NCBI RefSeq assembly: GCF_013409505.1
Contig: NZ_JACCBN010000001.1
Span: 186,001 to 250,000, forward strand
DNA from: Actinomycetospora corticicola
GTDB lineage: Bacteria > Actinomycetota > Actinomycetes > Mycobacteriales > Pseudonocardiaceae
Length of the DNA: 64,000 bases
Direction: 5' to 3'
Positions 14,295 to 28,894 of the stretch are shown here, piece after piece. The first letter of the stretch is position 1. Every line of letters starts with the position of its first letter. The notes below the pieces were generated by a model. The model had not been told where the DNA came from. It searched no databases and worked only from the letters and a program-made list of their open reading frames with translations. A program made the position numbers and the translations under genes.

Positions 14295-14406
14295 GGGTGA
14301 CCATCCTCCGGTCGCCGGACGAACCCGACAACCCGAGGTGACGTGGACGTCAGGTAAGCGCGGCCGGTTCTCGACGGCGCCGGTCCCCGCCGAGGAGGCT
14401 GTCGCC

Positions 14407-15360
14407 GTGCGGGCACCGTCGACCCATCTGGCCAACCTCGACCTCAACCTGCTCGTGTCGCTGCGCGAGCTGCTCCGCGAGCGGAACGTGACCCGTGCGG
14501 CCGCCCGGGTAGGGGTGACGCAGCCCGCGGCGAGTGCCGCGCTGTCCCGGCTGCGTCGCCATTTCGACGACGAGCTGCTCGTCCGGCACGCGGGGGGATA
14601 CGTCCTGACCCCGCTCGCGGCACAGCTCGCCGACCAGGTCGAGGGCGTGTGCGCCGCCGCGGAACGCCTCTTCGGCACCGGGCACCGGTTCGACCCGACG
14701 ACCTCGCGGCGCAGCTTCAGCCTGCTCGTCGCCGATTACACCATCGCGGTGCTGGGGACGGCCCTGTCCTCGGCCCTCGCGGACCGGGCACCGGGGGTCG
14801 AGCTGCGGCTGCGCCTGGTCCACGAGTCGTTCTCCAACGACATCGGCGAGCGCATCCGGCTGATCGACGGCATGGTCGCCCCAGCGGCCCCGCGGTTCGA
14901 CCGCCCCGACCTGCGCTCGGTCCATCTCTTCGCCGACCGCTGGGTCCTCCTGCTCGACGCCGCGAGCCCCGCGGCCGAGGAGGATCTGACCCCGGCCCGA
15001 CTGGCCGTGCTGCCGTGGATCGTCCCCTTCGCGCCCGACCGGGGCTTCTCCACCGCGGCCCCGCTCACCCGACAGCTGGCCCGTCTCGGGGTCGAGCCCG
15101 ACACCCGGGTGCGGGTCGAGAGCTACCTCGCCGTGCCCCACCTCGTGGCCGGGACCGACCGGGTCGCGTTGGTCCAGGACCGGCTCGCCCGGGACGTCGC
15201 GCCGCGGCTGGGGCTCGTGACGCGCGAGTGTCCGCGGGTCGACGACGAGGAGCGGCCGACCGGGATCGAGGAGCGGCTGTGGTGGCACGCCGACCACGAC
15301 AGCGACCCGGCCCACCAGTGGCTGCGCGCCCTGCTCGTCGAGCTGACCGCCCGTCTCTGA
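14407..15360 (+). CDS. LysR-family transcriptional regulator (NodD-like branch)
   Basis: 317 aa. The helix-turn-helix begins at HLANLDLNLLVSLRELLRERNVTRAAARVGVTQPAASAALSRLRRHF, with the DLNLL start typical of the NodD/PcaQ-like group. The effector-binding part follows (FSLLVADYTIAVLGTALSSAL). GTG 14407 is chosen for its GAGGAGG site eight bases upstream; the frame is open farther up but without homology. It is divergent from the ssuD-like leader and 92 bp upstream of the catabolic island on the same strand. It could control either side, and the position directly before the island makes that the first choice. Confidence 0.88.
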   Translation: MRAPSTHLANLDLNLLVSLRELLRERNVTRAAARVGVTQPAASAALSRLRRHFDDELLVRHAGGYVLTPLAAQLADQVEGVCAAAERLFGTGHRFDPTTSRRSFSLLVADYTIAVLGTALSSALADRAPGVELRLRLVHESFSNDIGERIRLIDGMVAPAAPRFDRPDLRSVHLFADRWVLLLDAASPAAEEDLTPARLAVLPWIVPFAPDRGFSTAAPLTRQLARLGVEPDTRVRVESYLAVPHLVAGTDRVALVQDRLARDVAPRLGLVTRECPRVDDEERPTGIEERLWWHADHDSDPAHQWLRALLVELTARL

Positions 15361-15387
15361 CCCGCTGAGCTGCGGTTATTCGTGCGG

Positions 15388-15416
15388 TTGATGATCGCTC
15401 AGGTCGGTTGTCTATT
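15388..15416 (+). promoter_or_regulatory. Candidate promoter of the catabolic island
   Basis: TTGATG (15388-15393), a 17-bp spacer and TCTATT (15411-15416) form a plausible sigma-70-type promoter in an AT-richer patch. It would give a ~30-nt 5' leader before ATG 15453. This is the only AT-rich stretch before the long run of coupled genes. Confidence 0.4.
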
Positions 15417-15452
15417 TCCGTCATGGCTCACGTCACTCCTAGCTTGTGACCC

Positions 15453-16769
15453 ATGCCGCACCCGCTCACCGACCTCCCGGTCCGCACGGTCGTGCGACCC
15501 GGACCGGCCCGGCCGACCGACGCTCCCGAGCACGTGGTCACGGCCGACGTGTGCGTCGTCGGGGCGGGCATCGCCGGCGTCTCGGCCGCGGTGGAGTCCG
15601 CGCGGCTGGGCCGTGCGGTCGTCCTGGTCGACTCCCTGCCTGTCCTCGGCGGCCAGATGGTGAACTCGCTGATCGGTCTGTTCTGCGGCGTGTTCGGCAA
15701 CGCCCCGGAGCACCGGCGGCTGACCCACGGGATCTTCGACGACATCCTCGCCGACCTGGGCGCGAGCGGGGACCTGTTCTACCGGGTCGGGCACACGACC
15801 ACCGTCGGCTACGACGAGGTCCGGCTCGGCCGGTGGGTCGAGGACACGGTCCGCGAGCACGGCATCAAGGTCCTCACCGGGGCGTCGCTCGTCGGCGTCG
15901 ACCGGGAGGGGGACCGGGTGGTGGGCACCCGGTTCGCCACCCGCTTCGGCGCCGTCGACGTCCGCGCGCACGGCTTCGTCGACGCCAGCGGGGACGCGGC
16001 GTTGTGCTGGGCGGCGGGCCTGCCGTGCCGGCTGCCCGACCGGGAGATCTACGGCAGCCAGCAGCTCGTCGTCGAGAACCTCGTCGAGACCGCGGCCCCC
16101 GACCCGGCCGACCTCTCGGCCCGGGTCGACGCGAAGGCCGCCGAGTACGGCCTGCGCCGTCACGACGGGCTGGCCTTCTTCTTCCCGGGGCGCGGCACGG
16201 CGGTGCTCAACATGACCCACATCGAGGCCCCGCTCGACCCGATCGCCGCCGCCGAGGCCCAGCTGGAGGGCAAGGCCCAGGCCGACCGGGTCGTCGACTT
16301 CCTGCGCGCCGAGTTCCCCGAGGTGTTCGGCAAGGCGGCCGTGCGCGCCTACGGGCTGCCCGGCCGGCGCCAGACGCGGTGGGTGGCCGCCGCCCACCAG
16401 CTCACCGTCGACGAGGTCCGCGCGGGCATCCGCTTCCCGGACGCCGTCGCGCGCACCGCGTGGCCGATCGAGCTGCACGACAGTCCCGCGGGCTACGTCT
16501 GGGAGACCTTCGACGCGGACCACCTGCACTACGTGCCGCTGCGCTCCATGGCGCCCCCCGACGTCACGAACGTCCTCGCGGCCGGTCGCTGCATCGACGG
16601 GGACGCGGCCGCGCTGTCCAGCGTCCGCGTGATGGGGCCGTGCGCCGCGATGGGGCACGCGGCCGCGCACGCCCTCGACATGGCGGGCCCGGACGGCAGC
16701 GTCCACACCGTGTCCGCCGAGCGGGCCGGCGAGCTCGTCGCCCGGGTCCGGGTGAACGTCGATGACTGA
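15453..16769 (+). CDS. FAD-dependent oxidoreductase (FAD_oxidored family)
   Basis: 438 aa. A dinucleotide-binding motif lies at residues 33-50 (DVCVVGAGIAGVSAAVES), followed by GGQMVNSLIGLFCGVF, a pattern of the FAD_oxidored group. The C-terminal flavin-contact region is NVLAAGRCIDGDAAALSSVRVMGPCAAMGHAAA. Family members are poorly characterised; they often sit with sugar-acid or hydroxy-acid dehydratases and probably oxidise an alcohol or a C-H bond next to a carboxylate. It is the first gene of the island and overlaps the IlvD-type gene by eight bases. Function within the pathway is inference. Confidence 0.85.
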   Translation: MPHPLTDLPVRTVVRPGPARPTDAPEHVVTADVCVVGAGIAGVSAAVESARLGRAVVLVDSLPVLGGQMVNSLIGLFCGVFGNAPEHRRLTHGIFDDILADLGASGDLFYRVGHTTTVGYDEVRLGRWVEDTVREHGIKVLTGASLVGVDREGDRVVGTRFATRFGAVDVRAHGFVDASGDAALCWAAGLPCRLPDREIYGSQQLVVENLVETAAPDPADLSARVDAKAAEYGLRRHDGLAFFFPGRGTAVLNMTHIEAPLDPIAAAEAQLEGKAQADRVVDFLRAEFPEVFGKAAVRAYGLPGRRQTRWVAAAHQLTVDEVRAGIRFPDAVARTAWPIELHDSPAGYVWETFDADHLHYVPLRSMAPPDVTNVLAAGRCIDGDAAALSSVRVMGPCAAMGHAAAHALDMAGPDGSVHTVSAERAGELVARVRVNVDD

Positions 16770-18462
16770 GCCGGACCCGTCGGCCGCCCGGCCCCTGCGC
16801 TCGGTCCACGCCCCGGGCAGCGTCCGCTGGGCCACGCGCCGTGCCCAGTGGCGCGCCCTCGGCCTCACCGACGCCGACCTCGAGAAGCCCAAGATCGCGG
16901 TCGTCAACTCCTCCTCGGACATGGCGATCTGCTTCTCCCACCTCGACGAGATCGCCGCCCGCGTCAAGGCGGGGGTGCGCGCCGCCGGCGGGCTCGCCTT
17001 CGAGGCGCGCACCGTCGCGCCGAGCGACTTCCTGCACGCCGCCGGGCACGGCGGCGGCTACGTGCTCTCCTCCCGCGACCTGATCGTCGCCGACGTCGAG
17101 GTCGCGGTGGAGGGGGCGCGCCTCGACGGGATGATCTGCCTCGCCAGCTGCGACAAGACCACGCCCGCCCACCTGATGGCCGCCGCCCGCCTCGACGTCC
17201 CGACGATCGTCGTGGCCTGCGGCTACCAGCCCGCCGGGCGCCTGCGCGGCGAGCACTGCGACATCGAGGACGTCTTCCTCCACGCCTGCGGGGAGCCCTC
17301 GCCGACGCTGACCGCCGAGCTCACCGCCATGAGCGACGTCGCCGTCGGCGGACCGGGCGTGTGCGCCGGGATGGGCACCGCGAACTCGATGCACGTGGTG
17401 GCCGAGGCGCTGGGGATGGCGCTGCCCGGGACCACCCCGGTCGCGGCCCGCTCCGACGCGATGTGGGCCGCCGTCGACGCCGCCGCGGCCCGGATCGTCG
17501 CGATGGTCCATGAGGACCTGCGGCCCCGCGCCCTGATCACCGCGGCCGCCGTCGGGAACGCGGTCCGCGTGGCGCTGGCCGTCGGCGCCTCGATCAACAC
17601 CGTCAAGCACCTGCAGGCGGTCGCCGTCGAGGCCGGGCTGGACCTCGACGTGCTCGACCTGTTCGCGACGGCGGGGGCCGACACCCCCGTGCTCACCGAC
17701 GTCCGGCCGAACGGGCCGCGCTCGATCGAGGAGTTCGAGGCCGCCGGTGGGGCGGCCGCCGTCCTGGCCGAGCTCGGGGACCGCATCGACCGCACCGCGG
17801 CGACCGTCTCCGGCGCCACCCTCGCGGAGGACCTCGCGGGCGTGGCCTCCCGGGACCGGTCGGTGATCCGGCCGGCGACCGAGCCCGTCGTCGACGGACC
17901 GCTGGTCCTCGTCCTGCGCGGGTCGCTCTGCCCCGACGGGGGCATCGTCAAGCTCGCCGCCGACGCGCCGGTGGGCACGGCCACCCGGCCCGACGAGTTC
18001 ACCGGGCCGGCCCGGTGCGCGGACAGTCAGGAGGAGGCGCTCGCGCTGCTCGCGGCGGGACGCCTCACGGCGGGCGACGTCGTGGTGCTGCGGGGGCTCG
18101 GCCCGCACGGCCGCCCGGGGATGGGCATGGCCTCCCAGATCGTGTTCGCGCTCGACCGGGCCGGGCTCACCGGTCGGGTCGCCGTCGTCACCGACGGGCA
18201 GCTCTCCGGCCTGGTGAACCGGGGCGTGGTGGTCGGCGAGGTGCGCCCGGAGGCCGCGGACGGCGGCCCGCTGGCCCGCGTCCGCGACGACGACCTCGTG
18301 CGGATCGACCTCCGGGCGCGGACCTGCGACGTCCTCGTCGATCCCGCCGAGCTCGCCGCCCGCGACCCGGCCCCGGCCGCGGACCACGCCGAGACCGGCT
18401 GGCTCTCGGTGTACCGGCGCACCGCCCGGCCCCTGCAGGACGGGGCGGTCCTGCGCCCCTGA
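16762..18462 (+). CDS. IlvD/Edd-family Fe-S dehydratase (hydroxy- or sugar-acid dehydratase)
   Basis: 566 aa. The three cluster cysteines expected for the family are present at about residues 57 (SSDMAICFSH), 130 (ASCDKTTPAH) and 201 (GVCAGMGTANSM). The spacing is like that of L-arabinonate dehydratase (56/128/201), and the active-site loop TDGQLSG is near the C-terminus. The family removes water from 2,3-dihydroxy acids or sugar acids to give 2-keto-3-deoxy acids. Divergence in the substrate-binding segments argues against branched-chain amino-acid synthesis. It is coupled to the FAD oxidoreductase upstream and precedes aconitase-X genes, so the island holds two unrelated dehydratases. Confidence 0.88.
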   Translation: MTEPDPSAARPLRSVHAPGSVRWATRRAQWRALGLTDADLEKPKIAVVNSSSDMAICFSHLDEIAARVKAGVRAAGGLAFEARTVAPSDFLHAAGHGGGYVLSSRDLIVADVEVAVEGARLDGMICLASCDKTTPAHLMAAARLDVPTIVVACGYQPAGRLRGEHCDIEDVFLHACGEPSPTLTAELTAMSDVAVGGPGVCAGMGTANSMHVVAEALGMALPGTTPVAARSDAMWAAVDAAAARIVAMVHEDLRPRALITAAAVGNAVRVALAVGASINTVKHLQAVAVEAGLDLDVLDLFATAGADTPVLTDVRPNGPRSIEEFEAAGGAAAVLAELGDRIDRTAATVSGATLAEDLAGVASRDRSVIRPATEPVVDGPLVLVLRGSLCPDGGIVKLAADAPVGTATRPDEFTGPARCADSQEEALALLAAGRLTAGDVVVLRGLGPHGRPGMGMASQIVFALDRAGLTGRVAVVTDGQLSGLVNRGVVVGEVRPEAADGGPLARVRDDDLVRIDLRARTCDVLVDPAELAARDPAPAADHAETGWLSVYRRTARPLQDGAVLRP

Positions 18463-18500
18463 CGTCCGGCGATCCCACCCACCCCAGGAGGTCGGCACCG

Positions 18501-18554
18501 ATGCCGCACCCGAACCACCTCGAGGCGCCTCCCACGCGGGCGGTGACCCGATGA
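18501..18554 (+). CDS. 17-codon upstream peptide coupled to aconitase-X large subunit
   Basis: A strong AGGAGG site (18486-18491) lies nine bases before this ATG. The 17-aa frame (MPHPNHLEAPPTRAVTR) ends in a TGA that overlaps the next ATG as ATGA (18551-18554). The large-subunit gene has no good ribosome site of its own. It is therefore probably translated by coupling to this mini-frame. Whether the peptide itself matters is unknown. Confidence 0.5.
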   Translation: MPHPNHLEAPPTRAVTR

Positions 18555-19831
18555 TCCTCACCGACGACGAGCAGCGGATGCGCGACGGGGCGGACGGGCC
18601 GGCCACGGCGGCCGCGATGGACCTGCTGGTGCGCTACGGCGAGGCCCTCGACGCGGAACGGCTCTGCACCGTCCGCAACGTCGCGGGCACCACCACCCAG
18701 CCCTCCCCGGTGAAGGCCCGCCTGGTGGCCGAGGGTGGCTGGGACCGGGCCTTCTCGATCATCAACCTGGACGCCGACGAGACGCTGCCGATCCCGCCGA
18801 TGGCCGTCCCGACCTGCCAGCTCCAGCAGGGGTTCGGGCCGGACTCCGTGGGGACGGTGCCCTATCCCGAGGAGTTCGTGCAGCTCCAGAGCGGGGGAGA
18901 GGCGTTCATGGGGGCGCGGGGGGTCTCCGTGCTCGCGACCTGCACGCCCTACCAGGTCGGCAACCTCCCCGTCCGCGGCGAGCACTGCGCCTGGATGGAG
19001 TCCTCCGCCGTCGTCTACGCCAACAGCGTGCTGGGGGCGCGGACGAACTGCGAGGGAGGTGCTTCCACCGGGGCGGCCAGCCTGACCGGGCGCATCCCCT
19101 GCTGGGGCAACCACCACGACGAGCAGCGCCGCGGCACCCACCTTGTGCGGGCCACCACCCCGGTGGCGTCGTTCCGCGACTGGGGGCTCCTGGGCTACTT
19201 CGTGGGTGACGTCGTCCAGGAGGCCCGTCCGGTCGTCACCGGCGACCTGGCCCTGCCCGACCTCACCGACCTCAAGCACTTCGGGGCTGCCGCGGCGTCG
19301 TCCGGCGGGGTCGAGATGTACCACGTCCCCGGGGTGACCCCCGAGGCGCCGACGGTGGAGGCCGCGTTCGGCGGGGGCCGGGTGCCCGACGCCGTGGTGT
19401 TCGGCGAGGCCGAGAAGCGAGCCGCGTACGCCCGGCTCAACGACCAGGGCTCCGACGAGGACGTCGACTTCGTGCTCCTCGGGTGCCCGCACGCCTCGCT
19501 GGACCAGATCCGCGACATCGCGCGGGCCCTCGACGGCCGCCGCCTCGCCGCGGGCACCGAGCTGTGGGTGATGGCGCCGCGGGCGCTCGCCGCGGTCGCG
19601 GAGCGCTCGGGCCACACCGCGGTGATCGAGGCCGCCGGGGGCCGGGTGCTCACCGACTCCTGCCCGGCGATGTCGCGCACGGCTCCCGTCGGCACCCGGA
19701 CCTTCGCGACCGACTCGGCGAAGCAGGCGCACTACCTGCCGGCCATCCTCGGGATCGGCGCCTGGTTCGGGACCACGGCCGAGTGCGTCGACGCCGCGGT
19801 CACCGGCCGCTGGCGCGGTGAGCTCCGATGA
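18551..19831 (+). CDS. Aconitase X (AcnX) large/catalytic subunit
   Basis: 426 aa, clearly the AcnX catalytic domain: the start LTDDEQRMRDG, then FSIINLDADETLP, SVLATCTPYQVGNLPVRGEHCAWMESSAVVYANSVLGARTN and SCPAM near the C-terminus. Known AcnX proteins are cis-3-hydroxy-L-proline dehydratase and archaeal mevalonate-5-phosphate dehydratase. Here the swivel domain is a separate gene (two-subunit form). Residue 167 is Cys in TNCEGG, where I recall Arg (TNREGG) in other members; this may affect the substrate or cluster. It sits with an IlvD-type dehydratase, not with proline or mevalonate genes, so neither known activity is supported. Confidence 0.9.
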   Translation: MILTDDEQRMRDGADGPATAAAMDLLVRYGEALDAERLCTVRNVAGTTTQPSPVKARLVAEGGWDRAFSIINLDADETLPIPPMAVPTCQLQQGFGPDSVGTVPYPEEFVQLQSGGEAFMGARGVSVLATCTPYQVGNLPVRGEHCAWMESSAVVYANSVLGARTNCEGGASTGAASLTGRIPCWGNHHDEQRRGTHLVRATTPVASFRDWGLLGYFVGDVVQEARPVVTGDLALPDLTDLKHFGAAAASSGGVEMYHVPGVTPEAPTVEAAFGGGRVPDAVVFGEAEKRAAYARLNDQGSDEDVDFVLLGCPHASLDQIRDIARALDGRRLAAGTELWVMAPRALAAVAERSGHTAVIEAAGGRVLTDSCPAMSRTAPVGTRTFATDSAKQAHYLPAILGIGAWFGTTAECVDAAVTGRWRGELR

Positions 19832-20277
19832 GCGCGCCGCCGACCGCACTGCCGCGGGTCGTGCTGCGCGGGCGCACCGTCGTCCCGGGCGTCGTCACCG
19901 GCGAGGTCCTGGTCTCGCCCGAGACGATCTCGGGCTGGGGCGGGATCGACCCGGCCACCGGGACGATCATCGAGGCCCGCCACCCGCTGGCCGGGGTCTG
20001 CTTCTCCGGGCGCATCCTGGTCTTCCCCGGCGCCAAGGGCTCCTCGGGCTGGTCGGGGTTCTTCCAAACGACCCGGCTGCTCGGGACCGCGCCGATCGGG
20101 ATGATCTTCGCGGTGACCACCACGAAGGCGGCGCTCGGCGCGGTCGTCACCCGCGTGCCCGCCCTCGCCGACCTCGACGACGACCCGGTCGCGGTGCTGC
20201 GCACCGGCGACCGCATCCGGCTCGACGCCGACGCGGGCGTCGTCGAGCTCCTCGAGCGCACCGGGGAGGCCCCGTGA
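19828..20277 (+). CDS. Aconitase X small/swivel subunit (DUF126)
   Basis: 149 aa. The swivel-domain features are present: RTVVPGVVTGEVLVS, GWGGIDPATGTIIEARHPLAGVCFSGRILVFPGAKGSSGWSGFF and the strand GTAPIGMIFAVTTTKAALGAVV. It pairs with the catalytic subunit encoded just upstream (four-base ATGA overlap) to close the active site. The usual serine position of the swivel loop lies in the GSSGWSGFF segment. Its stop overlaps the Rieske ferredoxin start as GTGA. Confidence 0.9.
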   Translation: MSAPPTALPRVVLRGRTVVPGVVTGEVLVSPETISGWGGIDPATGTIIEARHPLAGVCFSGRILVFPGAKGSSGWSGFFQTTRLLGTAPIGMIFAVTTTKAALGAVVTRVPALADLDDDPVAVLRTGDRIRLDADAGVVELLERTGEAP

Positions 20278-20735
20278 GGATCGCGGTGATGGGCGCCGAC
20301 GAGCTCGCGCCCGGCGAGCACCGGGTGGTGCAGGTGGGCCGCCGCTCGATCGGGATCTTCCGGGTGGGCGACCGCTACCACGCGCTGGCCGACCACTGCC
20401 CCCACCAGGGCGGTCCCCTGTGCCGGGGCCGGGTCGCCCCGGTGGCGGTCGCCCCGGCCCCCGGCGAGGTCGCGCTCGACCCGGACCGGGTGTTCGTGGC
20501 CTGCCCCTGGCACGGCTGGGAGTACGACGTCACCACCGGCCGGTCCTACGTCGGACCCGGCGACGCGCCCGCCCGCAGCTTCCCGGCGGAGGTCGTGGCG
20601 GTGGACCCCCGGACCGGGCGCGTCCCGGGTCCCTACGTCGCGGACACGTTCGACGTGTCCGTCGAGAACCACGTCGTGGTCGTGGACACGACCGCGCGCC
20701 CCCGGCCCGACGACGTGCAGGAGGACCCCGCATGA
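20274..20735 (+). CDS. Stand-alone Rieske [2Fe-2S] ferredoxin
   Basis: 153 aa. The Rieske ligands are Cys42-x-His44 (DHCPHQGGPLC) and Cys77-x2-His80 (ACPWHGWEYD). An insert of about 15 residues (VAPVAVAPAPGEVALD) lies between the two boxes. It has no oxygenase domain, so it is an electron carrier or a small partner protein. It overlaps the AcnX small subunit (GTGA) and the first amidohydrolase (ATGA). It may carry electrons to the VanA-like oxygenase at 25844, although that enzyme has its own reductase, or serve an unknown redox step with the FAD protein. Confidence 0.88.
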   Translation: MRIAVMGADELAPGEHRVVQVGRRSIGIFRVGDRYHALADHCPHQGGPLCRGRVAPVAVAPAPGEVALDPDRVFVACPWHGWEYDVTTGRSYVGPGDAPARSFPAEVVAVDPRTGRVPGPYVADTFDVSVENHVVVVDTTARPRPDDVQEDPA

Positions 20736-21844
20736 CCACCACCCTCGCCCGGGACGCGGGCGCGGCGTCGCCGCGTCGTCGCGCCCGCACCCCCGTCGTG
20801 GACGCCGACATCCACCCGGCGGTCACCCCGGCCCGGCTCGCGACCGAGCTGCCCGCACCCTGGGCGCGGCGCTTCGAGCGCTTCGGGGTGCGGGGCGCGG
20901 CCCCGCCCGCGATCTACCCGCGGGTGCGCAACGGCGGCATGCGGGCCGACGCGCATCCCGCGTCGGGGCCTCCCGGCAGCGACCTCGGGCTGCTGCGCGA
21001 GCAGCTGCTCGACCCCTACGACGTCCTCGCGGGCGTGCTCATCCCGCTGCAGGGCCACACCTGGGGCGCGGAGGAACCCGCGTACGCCGCGGCCCTGTGC
21101 CGCGCGCTCAACGACATCCAGGTCGCCGACTGGCTCGACCCCGAACCCCGGCTGCGCGCCAGCATCTGCATCGCCCACGAGTCCCCGGAGCACGCCGTCG
21201 CCGAGATCGAGCGGCGCGCGGGGGACCCCCGCTTCGTGCAGGTGCTCTTCCCCAGCGGGACCCACCTGCCGGTCGCCGACGCGAAGTACCGGCCGATCTA
21301 CGCCGCCGCGGCCGCCGCCGGGCTCCCCGTCGGCATGCACCTCGGCGGCACCGAGGGGCACCGCGGGGACGGCTGGCCGTCGTTCTACCTCGAGCAGCAC
21401 GGCTGGTACGGCAACGCGATGGCGATGGCCCTGACCGCGCTCGTCGCGGGCGGCGTGTTCGACGACCACCCCGGCCTGCGCCTGGTCCTCGTGGAGGGCG
21501 GCATCACCTGGCTGCCCTCGCTGCTGTGGGGACTCGACGAGGGCTGGGCGTGCTTCCGCGACGACGTGCCGCGGGTGGTGCGTCCCCCGTCGGAGATCGT
21601 CCGGGAGCACTGCTGGTTCACCACCCAGCCGATCGACGAGCCGGAGAACCTCGCGCACCTCGCGACGACGCTGCGCCACACCGGCATGCTCGACCGGCTC
21701 CTCTTCGCCTCCGACTACCCGCACTGGGACTTCGACGACCCGGTGACGGCGCTGCGGGTGCTCCCCGCCGACCTGCGCCGGCCGATGATGGCCCGCAACG
21801 CGGCCGCGCTCTACGGTCTCGAGCTCCCGGCGGGCACCCCGTGA
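20732..21844 (+). CDS. Amidohydrolase_2 family (COG2159) metal-dependent hydrolase or decarboxylase, copy 1
   Basis: 370 aa TIM-barrel protein of the ACMSD-like amidohydrolase_2 family. The N-terminal metal motif is VVDADIHP, followed by LCRALNDIQ, RRAGDPRFVQVLF, the barrel His in PVGMHLGG and the late Asp in FASDYPHWDFDDP. The family includes decarboxylases of aromatic acids, hydratases and C-C hydrolases. The first motif is Asp-x-His rather than a full His-x-His, as in many COG2159 proteins. It forms a tandem pair with the next gene and is coupled to it by a GTGA overlap. The substrate is unknown. Confidence 0.87.
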   Translation: MTTTLARDAGAASPRRRARTPVVDADIHPAVTPARLATELPAPWARRFERFGVRGAAPPAIYPRVRNGGMRADAHPASGPPGSDLGLLREQLLDPYDVLAGVLIPLQGHTWGAEEPAYAAALCRALNDIQVADWLDPEPRLRASICIAHESPEHAVAEIERRAGDPRFVQVLFPSGTHLPVADAKYRPIYAAAAAAGLPVGMHLGGTEGHRGDGWPSFYLEQHGWYGNAMAMALTALVAGGVFDDHPGLRLVLVEGGITWLPSLLWGLDEGWACFRDDVPRVVRPPSEIVREHCWFTTQPIDEPENLAHLATTLRHTGMLDRLLFASDYPHWDFDDPVTALRVLPADLRRPMMARNAAALYGLELPAGTP

Positions 21845-22923
21845 GCGCCGGCGTGGTCGACGCGGACACCCACGTCGCCCCTGCGTCGTGGGCGGACCTC
21901 CTGCCCCACCTGCCCGCCTACTGGCGCGACTACGTCGAGGGCGCCGCGTTGCGCCTCGACCCGGTCCAGGCCGGCGCCTACCCGCCCGGCGCGGTCACCG
22001 GCGCCGCCCCCGCCGACGTCGAGACCCTGCGGGCGCAGGTGCTCGACGTGCCCGCGCCCGGCGGGGCCGCGGTCACGACGGCGGTCCTCACCGCGACCTC
22101 CGCCTTCGACGTCAGCCGCAACCCCTACTTCGACGCGGCCCTGTGCCGCGCGCTCAATGACTGGGTGGCCGAGCGGTTCCTCGACCACGACCCCCGGGTG
22201 CGCGCGAGTGTCGCGGTGCCCTCGGTCGACCCGGAGGCGGCGGTCGAGGAGATCCGTCGTCGCGCCGGGGACCCCCGCTTCGTCCAGGTGCTGCTGCCGG
22301 TGCGCGGCCACGACCACCGCTACGGCCACCGTCGCTTCCTGCCCCTGTTCGAGGCGAGCGTCGAGCACGGCCTCGCGGTCGCCCTGCACGCCTGGGGGCG
22401 GGCGGGCAGCGCGGCGACCACCACCGGGTTCACCCACACCTACCTCCAGGACTACCTCGCCCAGGGGCAGATCGCACAGGGCCAGCTCACCAGCCTCGTC
22501 GTGGAGGGGGTGCTGGGGCGGCTGCCCGACCTGCGGGTGGTCGTCGCCGAGTGCGGCTTCTCCTGGCTCCCGCCCCTGCTGTGGCGCCTGGACAAGGAGT
22601 GGAAGGGCATCTGGCGGGAGGTGCCGTGGGTGACCCGGCCGCCGTCGGAGTACCTCCGCGAGCAGGTCCGGTTCACGTCCACCCCGGCGCACCTGCCGAC
22701 CGCGCGCCCCGAGCTCGACGAGGCCCTCGAGGTGATCGGGCCGGGCGAGCTCGTCCTGTACGCCGGCGACCACCCGCACGTCCACGGCGACGGGACCGCG
22801 CGCCTGCTGGCCGCTCTCGGCCCGGCCGACCGCGCCGCCGTGCTCGGCGGCACCGCCACCACCTTCCTGCTCGACCCGGCCGCCCGGTCGGCGGCACCCC
22901 GTCCCCAGGAGGCCCACCGATGA
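21841..22923 (+). CDS. Amidohydrolase_2 family (COG2159) protein, copy 2
   Basis: 360 aa, a diverged paralogue of the preceding gene: VVDADTHVAPASWADLLPHLP, LCRALNDWVAERFLDHDPRVRASVAVPS, RRAGDPRFVQVLLP, barrel His in VALHAWG and late Asp in YAGDHPHVHGDGT. Shared stretches (LCRALND, RRAGDPRFVQVL) show common origin, while the differing active-site surroundings suggest two substrates or a heteromer. GTG 21841 overlaps the previous stop, and its own stop overlaps the ABC binding-protein start as ATGA. Confidence 0.86.
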   Translation: MSAGVVDADTHVAPASWADLLPHLPAYWRDYVEGAALRLDPVQAGAYPPGAVTGAAPADVETLRAQVLDVPAPGGAAVTTAVLTATSAFDVSRNPYFDAALCRALNDWVAERFLDHDPRVRASVAVPSVDPEAAVEEIRRRAGDPRFVQVLLPVRGHDHRYGHRRFLPLFEASVEHGLAVALHAWGRAGSAATTTGFTHTYLQDYLAQGQIAQGQLTSLVVEGVLGRLPDLRVVVAECGFSWLPPLLWRLDKEWKGIWREVPWVTRPPSEYLREQVRFTSTPAHLPTARPELDEALEVIGPGELVLYAGDHPHVHGDGTARLLAALGPADRAAVLGGTATTFLLDPAARSAAPRPQEAHR

Positions 22924-23975
22924 GACCGATCCGAATGTCCCGCAGCCGGGTGCTGCGCGCCCTCGCCGTGGCCCTCGCCGCGGTAGCGGTGCTCACGGCG
23001 TGCGGCGGGGCGGGAGACACCACCGACGACGGCCGCCAGCGGATGACCTTCCTCAACATCCTGCCGCTCGAGTCGTTGTCGTACTCGGCCGAGCTGATCG
23101 CCGACACGAAGGGCTTCTTCGCGGCCCGCGGGCTCGACGTCACCTTCGAGACGACCCAGGGCTCGGCCCCCGCCATCCAGACGGTCCTCGCCGGCTCCGC
23201 GGAGATCACCCGCATCGGCGACATCGAGACGATGATCGCCGCCGGGAAGCGGGGTGCCCCCCTCGTCGCGGTCGGGGAGGCCATCCACCGGGGCACGCTG
23301 CGCATGGTCTCGGCCCGCGACGACGCGATCACCGAGGCCGGGCAGTTCCGGGGCAAGCTCGTGGGGACCCCGTCCGAGGGCGGGACCAGTTCGATCACCC
23401 TCGACCTCGTCGCCGGCTCGGCGGGCGTCCCGCCGGCCGAGGTGCGCCGCCAGGTCGTCGGCCTCGCCCCGGGCGTGTTCGACCTGCTCACCACGGGGCG
23501 CATCGACGCCTACATCGTCTCCCTCGACACGTCCGTGCAGTTGCAGCGCACCCGGCCCGAGGCCGTCGTCTACGACCCGAATTCCGCCATCAGCGCGGGC
23601 GCCCAGGTCTACGCCACCTCGCGGGCGACCGCGCAGGACCCCGCGGAGCAGGACAAGCTGCGTCGCTACATGGCCGCGATCGACGACGCGGTGCGGTTCA
23701 TCGCCGCCGACCAGGCCACCGGGTTCCAGGCCACGATGGCCTCGATCTCCTCGAAGTACCAGGTCCCCGCGCTCGGCGATCCGGAGACGGCGCGCGAGGC
23801 GCTGCGCGGCTACGTCGCGTCCTACACCGGTGGGGAGACCTCCGTCGGCATCTCCCCGCAGCGCTGGGAGAGGACCTACCAGGAGATCGCCGGGATCGGG
23901 CAGTTGCCTCCGGGGCTGGACCCGGCGCAGTGGCTGGTCGCCGGGATCGCGCCGACCGGGACCGTGACCCGATGA
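22920..23975 (+). CDS. ABC importer substrate-binding lipoprotein (SsuA/NMT1-like)
   Basis: 351 aa. The N-terminus is a lipoprotein signal with lipobox LTAC and Cys28. The mature part follows the nitrate/sulfonate/thiamine-precursor binding-protein pattern: LPLESLSYSAELIADTKGFFAARGLDVTFETTQGSAPAIQTVLAGSAEITRIGD. Such proteins feed sulfonates, aromatic acids or pyrimidines to the matching permease. In this operon it probably captures the island's substrate. It precedes ATPase and permease genes in the usual order. Confidence 0.9.
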   Translation: MRPIRMSRSRVLRALAVALAAVAVLTACGGAGDTTDDGRQRMTFLNILPLESLSYSAELIADTKGFFAARGLDVTFETTQGSAPAIQTVLAGSAEITRIGDIETMIAAGKRGAPLVAVGEAIHRGTLRMVSARDDAITEAGQFRGKLVGTPSEGGTSSITLDLVAGSAGVPPAEVRRQVVGLAPGVFDLLTTGRIDAYIVSLDTSVQLQRTRPEAVVYDPNSAISAGAQVYATSRATAQDPAEQDKLRRYMAAIDDAVRFIAADQATGFQATMASISSKYQVPALGDPETAREALRGYVASYTGGETSVGISPQRWERTYQEIAGIGQLPPGLDPAQWLVAGIAPTGTVTR

Positions 23976-23989
23976 GGACGGGAGCACCG

Positions 23990-24847
23990 ATGAGCCAGGA
24001 GACGTTGGTCCACCACACCGATGCCGGACCGCAGCGCGACCGCGGAACGGCGGGGGCGGGCGGCCGCGCGGTCGGCCTCCGCGTGTCGGGCGTCGACAAG
24101 GTCTACCCGACGCGCCGCGGGGAGGTGCACGCGCTGTCGGGCATCGACCTCGAGATCGGCGTGGGCGAGTTCGTGTCGCTCGTGGGCCGTTCGGGGTGCG
24201 GGAAGACGACGCTGCTGCGCGTGTTGTCCGGGCTGCTGGCCCCGACGGCGGGTGCGGTCGAGGCGGGCGGCCGGTCGGCCTGGGTGAACGGGCGGCGCGA
24301 CGACGCCGTGTTCGCCGAGTTCGGGCTCGTCTTCCAGGAGGCGAACCTCTTCCCGTGGTTCACCGTGGTCGACAACGTCGCGCTCCCGCTCAAGCTGCGC
24401 GGTGTCGCGAAGGCCGAGCGTCGGGCGCGGGCCGCCGAACTGTGCGCGACCGTGGGGCTCGTCGGCTTCGAGGACTCCTACCCGCGCGAACTCTCCGGCG
24501 GGATGCGCCAGCGCGCCGCCATCGCGCGGGCGCTGGCGTGCGACCCGTCCGTGCTGCTCATGGACGAGCCCTTCGGGGCGCTCGACGCCATGACCCGCGA
24601 CCGGATGAACCTGGAGCTGCAGCGGATCCACGCCGACTCGGGCGCGACGGTCGTGTTCGTGACGCACTCGATCAACGAGGCGGTGTTCCTCGCCGATCGC
24701 ATCGTGCTGCTGACCCCGCGGCCCGGCCGCATCCGGTCGATCACGCCCGTCACCCTCCCGCGGCCGCGATCGGTCGAGGTGGAGGCGACGGCGGAGTTCG
24801 GCGAGCTCGTCGTCGGGCTGCGCCGCGAGCTGGACGAGGAGGACTGA
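23990..24847 (+). CDS. ABC importer ATPase (SsuB/TauB-like)
   Basis: 285 aa from ATG 23990, which has GGAG six bases upstream; ATG 23972 overlaps the previous stop (ATGA) and would add six residues. Walker A is GRSGCGKTTLLR, the Q-loop FQEANLFPWFTV, the signature LSGGMRQRAAIARAL, Walker B VLLMDEPFGALD and the switch His VTHS. This is the standard SsuB/TauB/NrtD type. It powers uptake with the neighbouring lipoprotein and permease. Confidence 0.93.
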   Translation: MSQETLVHHTDAGPQRDRGTAGAGGRAVGLRVSGVDKVYPTRRGEVHALSGIDLEIGVGEFVSLVGRSGCGKTTLLRVLSGLLAPTAGAVEAGGRSAWVNGRRDDAVFAEFGLVFQEANLFPWFTVVDNVALPLKLRGVAKAERRARAAELCATVGLVGFEDSYPRELSGGMRQRAAIARALACDPSVLLMDEPFGALDAMTRDRMNLELQRIHADSGATVVFVTHSINEAVFLADRIVLLTPRPGRIRSITPVTLPRPRSVEVEATAEFGELVVGLRRELDEED

Positions 24848-25689
24848 TGACCACGATCGAGCACACCGACGGCGCCCCGGCCCCGACCGCGGACGCCGGG
24901 GGTGAGGGCGAGTCGCCGTGGATGCGGCGGCTCCCGTGGATCAGCGGCCCGGTGATGCTGCTCGTGCTGCTGGGCGGCTGGCAGTTCGCGGTGTCCGTGG
25001 TCGGGGTGTCGGAGTTCATCCTGCCCGCACCGGGCGCGGTGGCGGGCGCGCTGGGGACGCTGCTCGCGAGCGAGGACATCTGGGGCCACGTCGGCATCAC
25101 GCTGTTCGAGGTCCTCGCCGGCTTCGGGATCGCGCTCGTCGTGGGTGTCGCCGTGGGCGCGGTGCTCGGCCGGATCGCGTGGCTGCAGCGGGCCGTGCAG
25201 CCGGCGCTCGTGGCCCTCCAGGTCGTGCCGAAGGTCGCGTTCGTGCCGATCTTCGTGATCTGGTTCGGCTTCGGCCCCACGTCGAAGATCATCATGGCCG
25301 CGCTGCTCGCCTTCTTCCCGATCATGCTGAACGTGATGCTCGGCGTGCGCTCGGTCGACCGCGGGCACCGCGACGTGATGCGCGGGCTCGGCGCCGGTCG
25401 ATGGGCGACCTTCCGCAACATGGAACTGCCCACGACACTTCCCTACGTGTTCACGGGCGCCGAGGTCGCGATCGTGTTCTCGGTGATCGGCGCCATCGTG
25501 GGTGAATACCTCGGCGGCAGCGAGGGGCTCGGATTCCTCGTGGTGTCGAGCCTGAACGCCCTCGACGCGCCTCGTCTGTTCGCCGTGATCGTGTTGTTGG
25601 CGGTGCTGGGATCCCTGCTCTACGTCGCCGTGACGACGGTCAAGAAGCTGGTCATCCCCTGGCACGACTCGGTGCGCACCGGGGTCTGA
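24847..25689 (+). CDS. ABC importer permease (SsuC/TauC-like)
   Basis: 280 aa with about six transmembrane helices. The cytoplasmic coupling loop MRGLGAGRWATFRNMELPTTLPYVFTGAEVA matches the EAA-type motif of SsuC/TauC permeases. It shares one base with the ATPase stop (TGATG). It ends the first operon block; a hairpin follows at 25706-25741. Confidence 0.93.
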   Translation: MTTIEHTDGAPAPTADAGGEGESPWMRRLPWISGPVMLLVLLGGWQFAVSVVGVSEFILPAPGAVAGALGTLLASEDIWGHVGITLFEVLAGFGIALVVGVAVGAVLGRIAWLQRAVQPALVALQVVPKVAFVPIFVIWFGFGPTSKIIMAALLAFFPIMLNVMLGVRSVDRGHRDVMRGLGAGRWATFRNMELPTTLPYVFTGAEVAIVFSVIGAIVGEYLGGSEGLGFLVVSSLNALDAPRLFAVIVLLAVLGSLLYVAVTTVKKLVIPWHDSVRTGV

Positions 25690-25705
25690 GCAGGCGCTGC
25701 GCCCG

Positions 25706-25741
25706 TCGACGGACCCGGCCCCCGAGGGTCGGGTCCGTCGA
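25706..25741 (+). terminator. Hairpin terminator after the ABC permease
   Basis: Arms TCGACGGACCCG and CGGGTCCGTCGA pair perfectly across a 12-nt loop. It lies 16 bp after the permease stop and separates the transport block from the oxygenase block. Confidence 0.7.
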
Positions 25742-25775
25742 TTCGGCGTGCCCGGTCGCGAGCGGGAATTCGGCG

Positions 25776-25793
25776 GTCGGACAGTTTTCCGAC
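25776..25793. promoter_or_regulatory. Candidate operator upstream of the Rieske oxygenase
   Basis: An 18-bp inverted repeat GTCGGA-CAGTTT-TCCGAC in a locally AT-richer stretch, 50 bp before the oxygenase ATG. Size and position fit a dimeric regulator such as the IclR protein at the end of this block. No experimental support. Confidence 0.4.
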
Positions 25794-25843
25794 ATGTGGG
25801 ACGGAGGCTGTGGAGGGTGCCCGGCGCGCCGCACGATATCGAC

Positions 25844-26896
25844 ATGACCACCACGATTCCCCGCGAGCAGTGGTACGTCGCCGCCTACGGGGTCGAGATT
25901 CGGGACGAATTGTTCCACCGCACGATCGCGGGGGAGTCCATCCTGTTCTGGCGCACCGCCGAGGGAACGGTCACCGCGGTCTCCGACCGGTGCGTCCACC
26001 GCCGCTTCCCGCTCTCGCAGGCGCCGACCCGCCTCGTCGACGACCAGGTGATCTGCGGCTACCACGGCTTCACCTACGGCAGCGACGGCCGGTGCACCGC
26101 CGTCCCGGGCCAGACCCGGGTGCCGCGGACGGCCCGCCTCACCTCGTACCCGATCCGCGAGCAGGACTCCCTCGTCTGGGTGTGGATCGGCGACCCGGCC
26201 CGGGCCGCGGACACCCCGATCCCGCGGGCACCGTGGCTCGACGACCCGGCCTGGACGGTCGTCCGCGGGCTCGAGCCGCTCGCGGCCCGCTTCGGGCTGC
26301 TGGTGGACAACCTCCTGGACCTCTCGCACGAGACCTACCTGCACGGCGGCTCCATCGGCACCCCGGAGGTCGCCGGGACCCCGATCACCACCGAGGTCGA
26401 CGACGAGGCGGGCGTGGTCCACGTGAGCCGGCACATGGACGACGCCGAGTGCCCGCCCTTCTACGCCCGCTCCACCGGGCTCCGCGGCCGGATCTCGCGA
26501 TGGCAGGACATCGAGTACACCCCGCCGTGCCTCTACCTCCTGCACTCGCGCATCGCCCCGGTGGGGAGCGTCCCCCGCCCCGACGGCACCGACCCGGACG
26601 CCTTCCACGTCGAGGTCGTCTACGCCATCACGCCGGAGACGGAGCACTCCACGCACGACTTCTGGATGGTCGCCCGTGACTTCGCGCTCGACGACGCGGA
26701 GGTGTCGGCCTTCCTGGCCGAGCAGAACCGGGCCGTCGTCCGCCAGGACGTCGTCGCCCTCGACGTGCTCGAGACCGTCGTCGCCACCGACCCCGAGGGC
26801 GCCCAGGAGCTCTCGATCAACATCGACACCGGGGGCCTCGCCGCGCGGCGCCTCCTGGCCCGCCAGCTGGGCGCCGGCGCCGGGGGTGTCCGGTGA
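25844..26896 (+). CDS. VanA-like Rieske non-heme iron oxygenase
   Basis: 350 aa. The Rieske ligands are Cys50-x-His52 and Cys71-x2-His74 (RCVHRRF, ICGYHGFTY). The catalytic iron segment is DNLLDLSHETYLHGG (His162, His167), as in vanillate O-demethylase and related monooxygenases. Such enzymes demethylate methoxy-aromatics or hydroxylate ring or side-chain carbons. ATG 25844 gives the usual N-terminus MTTTIPREQWYVAAYG. The reductase follows two genes later, with overlapping starts and stops. It is the probable oxygen-activating step of the island; the true substrate is unknown. Confidence 0.9.
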   Translation: MTTTIPREQWYVAAYGVEIRDELFHRTIAGESILFWRTAEGTVTAVSDRCVHRRFPLSQAPTRLVDDQVICGYHGFTYGSDGRCTAVPGQTRVPRTARLTSYPIREQDSLVWVWIGDPARAADTPIPRAPWLDDPAWTVVRGLEPLAARFGLLVDNLLDLSHETYLHGGSIGTPEVAGTPITTEVDDEAGVVHVSRHMDDAECPPFYARSTGLRGRISRWQDIEYTPPCLYLLHSRIAPVGSVPRPDGTDPDAFHVEVVYAITPETEHSTHDFWMVARDFALDDAEVSAFLAEQNRAVVRQDVVALDVLETVVATDPEGAQELSINIDTGGLAARRLLARQLGAGAGGVR

Positions 26897-27117
26897 CGGC
26901 GGGGCCGGACCGAGTGCCCCTTGGGACCGCGAGGATCCGGGTGGTGTGGCTGCCCGGCGACGACCGGCTCCGGGGCACCTGTCACTGCGGCTCCGAGGTC
27001 GTGGCCGAGGGACCGGTCGAGGTGTGGACGTGGTTGCTCGCCCATCCCGACGGCCACCACGGGGTGGACGGCGCGCACCCGGGGGCACTCGCCGGGACCG
27101 CGGGGGTCCCGTGGTGA
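26893..27117 (+). CDS. Small conserved-looking protein with CHCG motif between oxygenase and reductase
   Basis: 74 aa, GTG start overlapping the oxygenase stop (GTGA) and ending with the same overlap at the reductase start. The middle reads RGTCHCGSEVVAEGPVEVWTWLLAHPDGH. Strand-rich with a single CxC pair, it may bind metal or assist the oxygenase, but no family is recognised. Gapless coupling on both sides makes it likely to be a real gene. Confidence 0.6.
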   Translation: MTAGPDRVPLGTARIRVVWLPGDDRLRGTCHCGSEVVAEGPVEVWTWLLAHPDGHHGVDGAHPGALAGTAGVPW

Positions 27118-28106
27118 CCGCGTCGACCGCCGTCACCGGTCCGGGATCCGCCGCCGACGGGACGGCGGGACTCGATCTGCTCGTGGAGCGTCGCGAGCTC
27201 GTCGCCGATGACGTGGTGGCCCTGACGTTGACCCGACCGGGAGGCGCGGCGCTCCCGGCGTGGACGCCGGGCGCCCACGTCGAGCTGCACCTCGACGGGT
27301 TCGTCCGCCCGTACTCGCTCTGCGGCGACCCGCACGACGACCACCGGTGGCGGATCGCGGTCCTGCGCGTCCCCGCCGGTCGCGGGGGTTCCGCCCGTGT
27401 CCACGACACGCTGCACCCCGGCGCGACGATCCGCGTGCTCGGGCCCCGCAACCGGTTCGCGCTCCTCTCGGCGCCGAGCTACCGGTTCGTCGCCGGCGGG
27501 ATCGGCATCACCCCGCTCCTGCCGATGATCGCCGAGGCGGAGACGCGCGGGGCCGACTGGCACCTCACCTACGGCGGTCGGAGCACCTCCACCATGGCCT
27601 TCGCCGATCGGCTGCGGGCCGAGCACCCCGACCGGGTCGAGCTGTGGCCGGAGGACACGTGCGGCCTGCTCGACCTCCGCCGGGCGGTCGGCGAGCTCGA
27701 GCCGGACGGGCTCGTGTACTGCTGCGGGCCGGCGCCCCTCCTCGCGGCGATCACCGCCCACACGGCCGACCGTCCGCCCGGGGTGCTCCACCTGGAGCGG
27801 TTCACCCCGGTCGAGGACGCCGCGGGCGACGAGCGGCGGGAGGGCTTCGAGATCGAGCTCGCCGCCTCCGGCCGCCGCCTCGTCGTCCCGCCGGGGCGCA
27901 CGGTCCTCGAGACTCTCGAGGACGCCGGCGTCGACATGCTGTCCTCCTGCCGCGCGGGCACCTGCGGGACCTGCGAGACCGGGGTGCTCGCCGGCGAGGT
28001 CGACCACCGGGACGCCCTGCTCTCCGCGGAGGAGCGCTCGGCCCACGACACGATGTTCGTCTGCGTCTCCCGCGCCGCCTCCGCGCGGCTCGTCCTGGAC
28101 CTGTGA
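27114..28106 (+). CDS. VanB-like oxygenase reductase (FMN, NAD(P)H, plant-type [2Fe-2S])
   Basis: 330 aa from GTG 27114 (GTG 27111 is possible). The flavin site is RPYSLCGDP, the nicotinamide site AGGIGITPLLPMI and YCCGPAPLL. The C-terminal ferredoxin domain has CRAGTCGTCETG plus a final FVCVS cysteine. This is the phthalate-oxygenase-reductase layout that serves VanA-type oxygenases. It passes electrons from NAD(P)H to the Rieske oxygenase two genes upstream. It overlaps the small protein before it and the IclR gene after it (both GTGA). Confidence 0.92.
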   Translation: MTASTAVTGPGSAADGTAGLDLLVERRELVADDVVALTLTRPGGAALPAWTPGAHVELHLDGFVRPYSLCGDPHDDHRWRIAVLRVPAGRGGSARVHDTLHPGATIRVLGPRNRFALLSAPSYRFVAGGIGITPLLPMIAEAETRGADWHLTYGGRSTSTMAFADRLRAEHPDRVELWPEDTCGLLDLRRAVGELEPDGLVYCCGPAPLLAAITAHTADRPPGVLHLERFTPVEDAAGDERREGFEIELAASGRRLVVPPGRTVLETLEDAGVDMLSSCRAGTCGTCETGVLAGEVDHRDALLSAEERSAHDTMFVCVSRAASARLVLDL

Positions 28107-28894
28107 CCGCCGTGGGCGTCGCGAAGGGCCGGGTGACCGGGCCCGTCGTGGCCCGGGCCTTCAGCGCCCTCGCCGCGTTCGACGCCGAGCACCCGCAGCT
28201 CTCGCTCAGCGAGCTCGCCCGGCGGACCGGTCTCCCGATCTCCACGGTGCACCGGCTGGCAGCCGAGCTGCTCGCGTGCGGTGCGCTGGAACGCGGGACC
28301 TCGGGCCGGTACCAGATCGGGCTGCGGCTCTGGGAGATCGGAGCGCTCGCCCCCCGCGGCCCCGGGCTGCGCGAGATCGCGCTGCCCTTCCTGGAGGACC
28401 TGTGCGAGGTCACCCGGGAGAACGTGCAGCTCGCGGTCCGGGAGGACGACGAGGTGGTCTACGTCGAGCGGCTGGCCGGGTCCCGGGCGGTCCCGGTCCG
28501 CACCCGGGTAGGCGGCCGGTTCGCGCTGAGCGCCACCGGCGTCGGCCTGGTCCTGCTCGCGCACGCGCCCGGGGAGGTGGTCGACCGGGTGCTCGCCTCC
28601 CCGGTCCCGCGCTACACCCGGCACACCCTCACCTCGACCGCCGCTATCCGGGAGGCCCTCGCCGCCGCCCGTCGTCGGGACTGCGCGGTCAGTGACCGCC
28701 AGGTCACCGACGATGCGGTCTCCGTGGCGGCGCCGATCCGGCACGGCAGCGGGCCCGTAGTGGCCGCGCTCTCGATCGTCGCGCACGCGGAGGGCGCCGA
28801 GGTGGCCTCGCTCTCGGCCCTCGTGCGCACCAGCGCGCACGCCGTCTCGCGGGCCCTCGGGTCGGTCCCCGGGCCGCGGCGCTTTGGCGGCTGA
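28103..28894 (+). CDS. IclR-family transcriptional regulator
   Basis: 263 aa. The winged helix-turn-helix is at residues ~10-70 (VVARAFSALAAFDAEHPQLSLSELARRTGLPISTVHRLAAELL). The effector domain follows with DDEVVYVERLAGSRAVPVRTRVGGRFALSATGVG and HGSGPVVAALSIV. IclR proteins commonly control aromatic and organic-acid catabolism. It is co-transcribed with the oxygenase and reductase, so it probably autoregulates this block. A perfect hairpin follows the stop. Confidence 0.92.
   Translation: MTAVGVAKGRVTGPVVARAFSALAAFDAEHPQLSLSELARRTGLPISTVHRLAAELLACGALERGTSGRYQIGLRLWEIGALAPRGPGLREIALPFLEDLCEVTRENVQLAVREDDEVVYVERLAGSRAVPVRTRVGGRFALSATGVGLVLLAHAPGEVVDRVLASPVPRYTRHTLTSTAAIREALAAARRRDCAVSDRQVTDDAVSVAAPIRHGSGPVVAALSIVAHAEGAEVASLSALVRTSAHAVSRALGSVPGPRRFGG

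Follow-up and report, generated by a model that had tools for sequence, protein, structure and literature searches.

The joint presence of an AcnX-type aconitase, an IlvD-type dehydratase, a flavoprotein and several oxygenase components in one gene run of Actinomycetospora corticicola raises the question of whether these genes serve a single pathway, and of what kind of compound they act on. The run lies in the stretch of DNA analysed here (the window, 64,000 nucleotides, positions 186,001 to 250,000 of NZ_JACCBN010000001.1), part of a genome assembled as a 6.17-Mb single contig. Our reading is that it represents a regulon for organic-acid catabolism under LysR control, not described before but made up of known families: an acid-degrading gene set carried by a soil actinobacterium. 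In the account that we consider probable, two catabolic units adjoin each other: unit A, a pathway under LysR control that acts on an organic acid taken up from outside, and unit B, a separable VanA/VanB-like set under an IclR regulator. Unit A extends over 14338-25689 (from the LysR gene to a permease) and unit B over 25817-28894.

Genes were called in the window with a codon model, and their families were checked with hidden Markov model (HMM) libraries (Pfam, NCBIfam). The run consists of 14 head-to-tail genes (15453-28894) preceded by a LysR gene (14338-15360), and its first gene starts at ATG 15453, not at 15388. Neighbouring genes overlap at 8 of the 13 junctions (by 1, 4, 4, 4, 4, 4, 7 and 8 nucleotides), and the remaining five are gaps of 88, 8, 11, 14 and 127 nucleotides. 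A preliminary description of this DNA had counted 13 genes, mostly with overlaps of 1-8 bases; the overlaps stand, the gene count does not. The HMM searches confirmed the families that it had named: FAD_oxidored (PF12831), ILVD_EDD, AcnX, AcnX swivel, Rieske and Amidohydro_2 (twice) in the first part of the run, and NMT1, ABC_tran, BPD_transp_1, Rieske with VanA_C, a Fer2/NAD-binding reductase and IclR in the second.

The run opens with four genes:
15453-16769, plus strand: FAD oxidoreductase (PF12831)
16762-18462, plus strand: dehydratase of the IlvD/EDD superfamily (PF00920/PF24877)
18551-19831, plus strand: AcnX large subunit (PF04412, 369 bits)
19828-20277, plus strand: AcnX small (swivel) subunit (PF01989)

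AcnX proteins score above the curated cut-off in 38 of the 297 genomes of the family. Neighbourhoods and a tree sort AcnX into a hydroxyproline-linked class, at least one other class and the class of the window protein, which by this sorting of our own is present in 30 of the 297 genomes. From a scan of named genomes we took the best 80 of 421 AcnX relatives, and all figures given for 80 loci concern these nearest ones only. A PF12831 flavoprotein (of either of two subgroups) is encoded in 71 of them, IlvD in 56, both in 53 and the small AcnX subunit in 79; contig ends cut some of the loci without flavoprotein or IlvD. The loci of the other AcnX classes, used as a control, contain neither the flavoprotein (0/11) nor IlvD (0/11), and this difference upholds the earlier suggestion that AcnX, IlvD and the flavoprotein make up a recurrent catabolic core. 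Operons with only the core, an importer and a regulator recur in Actinobacteria, and a Paroceanicella plasmid shows the order LysR-ilvD-FAD-AcnX-DUF126 beside a TRAP transporter. Among proteobacterial relatives, the window AcnX class was found in 2 of 385 and 10 of 268 genomes (E up to 1e-110), where a look for substrate clues (six stretches, one plasmid) revealed only further transporters and regulators.

The residues of AcnX provide information on its possible substrate. We aligned 90 sequences of the class, a few of which are the same gene twice, with the two solved AcnX enzymes, taking the residue roles from the account of them in PMC8184944. C131, C312, C371, E150, S151, K391 and Y395 are kept in all 90 sequences, so that every one has a Cys at each of the three cluster positions of TkAcnX (C131, C312, C371). 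The supporting Asn (Asn233 of AtAcnX, equated with Asn79(L) of TkAcnX in the same account in PMC8184944) is replaced by Leu91 in 89 sequences, the remaining one having a gap, and the position aligned with the amine-binding Asp203 of AtAcnX is Asp in none of the 90. The window AcnX scores 219 bits on the hydroxyproline dehydratase model NF051439, whose cut-off is 700, and its best solved relative is TkAcnX (194 bits). Judged by its substrate residues, it fits neither of the known AcnX functions, in agreement with what had been surmised from its gene company, and on these residues we rejected the hydroxyproline and mevalonate roles for it. It shares with AtAcnX the catalytic Glu, Ser, Lys and Tyr and the swivel domain, as these are described in PMC8184944, but differs from it in the absence of the amine-binding Asp and the supporting Asn, in the Cys at three archaeal-type positions and in its gene neighbours. 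With TkAcnX, a type IIb mevalonate-5-phosphate dehydratase, it has in common the separate large and small subunits and the three cluster-position Cys (described in the same part of PMC8184944), and its small subunit aligns with TkAcnXS through the region of the general-base serine; the differences are the Leu at the Asn79 equivalent and the setting in a bacterial catabolic operon. The relevant section of PMC8184944 describes subclasses IIc-IIf of AcnX as devoid of the landmark residues of either known function and as deserving characterisation. From its sequence, the window class fits this description of IIc-IIf as a group.

The core is followed in the window by three genes that may encode an oxygenase:
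20286-20735, plus strand: Rieske ferredoxin, AibG-like (PF00355), with the motifs C38-x-H (C38PH) and C73-x2-H (C73PWH)
20732-21844, plus strand: AH1, putative catalytic subunit of a dinuclear monooxygenase, AibH2-like (best PDB match 6m1w_B)
21841-22923, plus strand: AH2, its partner subunit, AibH1-like, of the mononuclear type (best PDB match 6m1w_A)

The best solved relatives of AH1 and AH2 are AibH2 (270 bits) and AibH1 (189.5 bits), respectively. In all eight sequences aligned, AH1 keeps D26, H28, H203, E255, D328 and H331 together with an extra acid, D333. AH2 keeps D9, H11, H183, E237, D310 and H313 and has H315 in place of the extra acid (6/6 sequences, the cut or split copies of L073 and L084 being left out of the alignment). 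This is the pattern given in the structural part of PMC7782822, where AibH2 has three His, three carboxylates and the extra Asp342, and AibH1 does not have that acid. A Rieske ferredoxin gene lies directly 5' of AH1 in 15 of 16 fetched oxygenase loci (it was not detected in L269), and the complete ferredoxin-AH1-AH2 trio is found in all seven AcnX loci that bear the oxygenase. Such amidohydrolase-related proteins are described, in the sections of PMC10811679 and PMC10401708 that deal with them, as dinuclear monooxygenases that can be recognised by an adjacent Rieske protein. Because its metal ligands, its best relatives and the adjacent ferredoxin all match these published enzymes, the trio looks like an AibH1H2G-type Mn/Fe monooxygenase, despite the hydrolase label that such sequences usually receive. 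The preliminary description had taken the PF04909 pair for COG2159 hydrolases or decarboxylases, a reading that we set aside on the strength of the kept ligands and the best relatives.

The 2-aminoisobutyrate monooxygenase of Rhodococcus wratislaviensis (AibH1H2-AibG-AibF) is also a PF04909 heterodimer beside a small Rieske ferredoxin (as presented in parts of PMC7782822 and PMC10401708), in which one subunit has the full dinuclear ligands and the other does not have the extra acid (structural part of PMC7782822). The window trio differs from it in its sequence distance (270 and 189.5 bits), in the absence of an AibF-type gene from unit A and in its company: where the aib cluster has dehydrogenases, a permease and AibC, unit A has AcnX, a flavoprotein and IlvD. 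A comparison by Pfam with Table 1 of PMC7782822 found none of these aib pathway genes (dehydrogenases, AibC, permease) in unit A. SfbO and other amidohydrolase-related dinuclear oxygenases likewise have a Rieske ferredoxin adjoining PF04909 proteins with dinuclear ligands (from their description in PMC10811679); the window differs by its two-subunit AibH1/H2 arrangement and its candidate partner pathway. These relationships bear on the possibility that the locus breaks down an amino acid, either 2-aminoisobutyrate or hydroxyproline, which we hold to be highly improbable. AibH2 and AibH1 are the best solved relatives of AH1 and AH2, and AcnX does produce a score on the hydroxyproline dehydratase model, but this score is far under the cut-off, the Asp203 site is never Asp, the equivalent of Asn233 is Leu in 89 of 90 sequences, and the only types of aib genes present in unit A, relative to those tabulated in PMC7782822, are the oxygenase and the ferredoxin. 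The gene content of hydroxyproline pathways is taken here as commonly described.

The distribution of the oxygenase links it to the AcnX class. We searched the 297 family genomes for AH1 relatives (E up to 1e-90) and found them in 33: in 25 of the 30 genomes with the window AcnX class against 8 of the 267 without it (odds ratio 162, ignoring relatedness among genomes). The five AcnX genomes without AH1 are G037, G148, G163, G194 and G269, and the AcnX relatives of G037 and G269 are only 50-52% identical. Within the 18 genomes of Actinomycetospora, all 5 that bear AcnX have an AH1 ortholog (at least 84%) and the other 13 have none, three of these carrying AH1 relatives of 58-59%. In most of the other genera seen, the ferredoxin-AH1-AH2 genes are located elsewhere in the genome, away from AcnX. 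Related LysR genes (48-60%) stand near 12 of 15 such separate oxygenase operons, and an ABC importer is often near them. VanB-like reductases (54-55% relatives) are found near the AibH-type oxygenase in L264, L265 and L273. The comparison supports placing the AibH-type oxygenase and the AcnX core in one pathway or regulon.

Additional information comes from the regulatory region of unit A, which contains:
14338-15360, plus strand: LysR-family regulator (PF00126/PF03466), the likely regulator of unit A
15376-15419, plus strand: 44-bp promoter/operator-like element ending TCTATTTCC

A LysR gene occupies the equivalent position in many AcnX operons, and the spacers between it and the flavoprotein gene resemble each other among AcnX loci. 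We trained a position matrix (PWM) on 8 AcnX promoters, all from loci without the oxygenase. It scores 35.7 at position 15376 of the window, against 1.2 for the next-best site in the 64 kb. The matrix was then applied to the whole length (17-18 kb each) of the 16 fetched oxygenase loci. Of these, L261 is linked to AcnX, and 15 are more than 20 kb away from it or in AcnX-less genomes (L262 and L266 share a contig with AcnX, from which they are some 30 and 52 kb distant). The training loci L067, L078 and L081 come from genomes that also supplied tested oxygenase loci, at different places. The top site falls 57-61 bp upstream of the ferredoxin match, on the correct strand, in 11 of the 15 separate loci: 9 of 11 in genomes with this AcnX (the misses being L260 and L272) and 2 of 4 in genomes without it (present in L268 and L271, missed in L269 and L270). 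Seven of these 11 sites score above the best of 27 control loci (11.0), and the other four, at 0.6-10.2, were counted by their position alone; two of the element-bearing loci, L264 and L265, are near-identical. Within the 6.17-Mb genome, the 30-bp core of the element (15390-15419) is matched nowhere else with two or fewer mismatches, and a reversed-pattern control gives no match. In 8 of the 9 genomes searched (all but G256), the core pattern picks out the AcnX promoter; three two-mismatch matches elsewhere were taken as chance.

We take the fact that an element trained on AcnX promoters tops separate oxygenase promoters as sequence evidence that the AcnX and oxygenase operons form one LysR regulon. 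Because the element also occurs in AcnX-less genomes, the oxygenase operon can stand alone. The earlier concern that only some of the genes travel together is thus justified for gene linkage, but co-occurrence and the shared element still connect the AcnX core with the oxygenase. These results also bear on whether the region merely gathers unrelated acid-use genes that have no common substrate. Such loose catabolic clustering agrees with the variable gene content, with the frequent location of unit B and of the oxygenase elsewhere in the genome and with the fact that genomes without this AcnX can also have the oxygenase operon and its element; we nonetheless consider it distinctly unlikely, because it would hardly explain the co-occurrence (25/30 against 8/267) together with an element shared between separate loci. 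A second copy of the element (27.3) was seen in L263, at about position 6067 on the minus strand, between a hydrolase gene and the gene of an importer binding protein. The hydrolase, of the fluoroacetate-dehalogenase/epoxide-hydrolase family, follows AH1/AH2 in 9 loci (e.g., L263:6094-6981) and is absent from the window run.

The relation of IlvD to the oxygenase is less regular. The window IlvD reaches 429.7 bits on the biosynthetic model TIGR00110, under the 618-bit cut-off for the biosynthetic equivalog, and has both Pfam domains of the ILVD/EDD superfamily and Cys57, Cys130 and Cys201, the presumed cluster cysteines. IlvD is found in none of the seven oxygenase-bearing AcnX loci, although L073, L084 and L107 are truncated at contig ends. 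In six genomes that have the oxygenase in the AcnX operon or are close to such genomes, nothing scores above 43% to IlvD. Among the mapped loci, the two lie side by side in the window only. Mutual exclusion is not a rule, as G064 and G146 hold both at separate loci. Either IlvD acts on a different substrate or a housekeeping enzyme replaces it.

The import of the substrate would be served by three further genes of unit A:
22935-23975, plus strand: binding lipoprotein of the NMT1/SsuA type (PF09084)
23990-24847, plus strand: ABC importer ATPase (PF00005)
24847-25689, plus strand: ABC importer permease (PF00528)

Importers are interchangeable across AcnX loci: NMT1-type ABC systems, two kinds of MFS transporter, branched-chain-type ABC systems, another ABC binding protein, tricarboxylate-type and TRAP systems, some of which we presumed from sequence. 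This variety points to an organic acid, and to none in particular.

Taken together, the families suggest the following scenario. The ABC importer would bring an organic acid into the cell. Electrons from NADH would reach the Mn/Fe (or diiron) centre of AH1 by way of a VanB/AibF-type reductase and the Rieske ferredoxin, and AH1 would use O2 to hydroxylate or dealkylate a C-H bond. AcnX, with a Tk-like three-cysteine cluster, would form an enoic acid by dehydration of a 3-hydroxy acid that has no amino group; IlvD, where present, would remove water from a 2,3-dihydroxy acid, and the resulting 2-oxo acid would enter central metabolism; and the flavoprotein would carry out one redox step. Each of these steps is singly backed by the chemistry of its family, and we infer their order and the substrate. 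The products of unit B are likely to enter the same metabolite pool or an adjacent one, and its reductase may also serve AH1. A more specific proposal, which we regard as a long shot, is that AcnX has a third function, converting a 3-hydroxy acid to an enoic acid that the AibH-type oxygenase would turn into a 2,3-diol and IlvD into a 2-oxo acid. The epoxide-hydrolase/fluoroacetate-dehalogenase-family enzyme, encoded just after the oxygenase in many genomes, might assist, and IlvD could come from the operon or be borrowed from branched-chain amino-acid synthesis, the order of steps being speculative. Borrowing of the housekeeping IlvD would explain why it is often missing from the operon.

Beyond the permease, the run continues with unit B:
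25690-25760, plus strand: long-hairpin stretch between units A and B, terminator-like, with no T-run
25817-26896, plus strand: VanA-like Rieske oxygenase, OxyA (Rieske and VanA_C domains)
26893-27117, plus strand: small CHCG-motif protein of 74 amino acids
27111-28106, plus strand: VanB-like 2Fe-2S reductase, RedB (PF00111, PF00175)
28103-28894, plus strand: IclR regulator (PF09339/PF01614), near OxyA/RedB in most mapped loci

The 127-nucleotide gap 5' of the VanA-like gene contains a 17-bp stem, and the RNA of 25690-25760 folds at -50.6 kcal/mol (z -4.83), a stability equalled by none of 200 shuffles; a scan for T-run terminators found none. The oxygenase has the domains and the reductase partner of vanillate O-demethylase VanAB, and its best PDB match is the dicamba O-demethylase DdmC (145 bits). 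VanA enzymes of actinobacteria are described in PMC9867520, and the likeness to VanAB as presented there comprises the Rieske and VanA_C oxygenase, the 2Fe-2S reductase and the actinobacterial occurrence. It is a likeness of domain make-up, and unit B differs by the addition of the CHCG protein and IclR. The CHCG protein has no match in Pfam or NCBIfam; it is a real protein, as the preliminary description supposed, with relatives that sit between OxyA and RedB and accompany these genes in 22 of 28 mapped loci, window included.

Does unit B belong to the same pathway as unit A? At E up to 1e-120, the VanA-like oxygenase is found in 67 of 397 genomes of the order and 85 of 297 of the family. In the 20 neighbourhoods fetched around its orthologs for mapping, it usually occurs with the CHCG protein, the VanB-like reductase and IclR, and sometimes with its own transporter, away from AcnX. 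Unit B is therefore a separable, stand-alone VanA/VanB-like module behind a strong hairpin. Its oxygenase is nevertheless encoded within 10 kb of this AcnX, on either strand, in 5 of the 80 loci (L085, L091, L093, L098 and L118, with differing arrangements) where a rough estimate, made without regard to relatedness, predicts about 0.06, and it is commoner in AcnX genomes (20/30 against 65/267; odds ratio 6.2), which makes a functional link with the AcnX unit possible. The preliminary description had gone further and treated the genes as a single island acting on a methoxylated ring acid; the stand-alone distribution speaks against this part, and the proximity to AcnX above chance in its favour. 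Under this reading, in which the substrate would be an aromatic or alicyclic acid with a methoxy group, the whole 14-gene run would act together, with a VanAB-like demethylation followed by the AcnX/IlvD core. The transporters of some core operons that score best, below cut-off, to an aromatic-acid family would agree with this, but 75 of the 80 AcnX loci show no VanA-like gene, which is widespread and has its own CHCG protein, reductase, IclR and sometimes transporter, and a ring-cleavage gene was not seen in the recurrent core. We thus think a single pathway of this kind unlikely, and favour the two adjoining units. In the open-licence PMC literature, we found no published pathway joining AcnX with IlvD, in line with the preliminary description, which could name no route; nothing outside PMC8184944 brought these two together, and no link of an aconitase with AibH2-type oxygenases was found there.

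Several observations were made around these genes. Two genes of the window diverge from the LysR gene: a luciferase-family gene resembling alkanesulfonate monooxygenase (12932-14104, minus strand; 459 of 510 bits) and an MFS gene like metabolite:H+ symporters (11631-12935, minus strand), whose best models, TIGR00883 and the shikimate transporter, score below cut-off. In L262 and L268, relatives of this MFS gene adjoin the AibH-type oxygenase. A second, more distant alkanesulfonate-monooxygenase-like gene (29772-30866, minus strand; 191 of 510 bits) flanks the cluster on its opposite side. Structural models of the flavoprotein were poor with 11 sequences (predicted local distance difference test [pLDDT] 55) and good with 50 (pLDDT 93.9). 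The matches of its structure are generic, so no function was drawn from its fold. An Oceanicola locus (L146:16488-17375) has a gene for a TauD/TfdA-family dioxygenase beside the flavoprotein, a third oxygenase type accompanying the window AcnX class. In AcnX loci of Microbacteriaceae (L108, L109, L120, L130, L132, L133, L135 and L138), a UGSC-group gene (PF24696 by its L048 member) occurs near the core with two unnamed partners, in several loci with another PF12831 subgroup and with genes that we take to resemble AMP-ligase, SDR and MaoC.

The link between the AcnX class and the oxygenase matters for both families. The part of PMC10401708 on AibH2-like proteins counts 555 of them, all uncharacterised and with neighbourhoods that say little on function, and the natural substrates of the oxygenase candidates discussed in PMC10811679 could not be inferred there. 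A further, smaller lead is the CHCG protein, which repeatedly accompanies VanAB-like enzymes. Two orphan enzyme groups, the AcnX class and the AibH-type oxygenase, become jointly testable: because co-occurrence and the shared promoter element tie them together, the acid that induces one operon should disclose the substrate of both.

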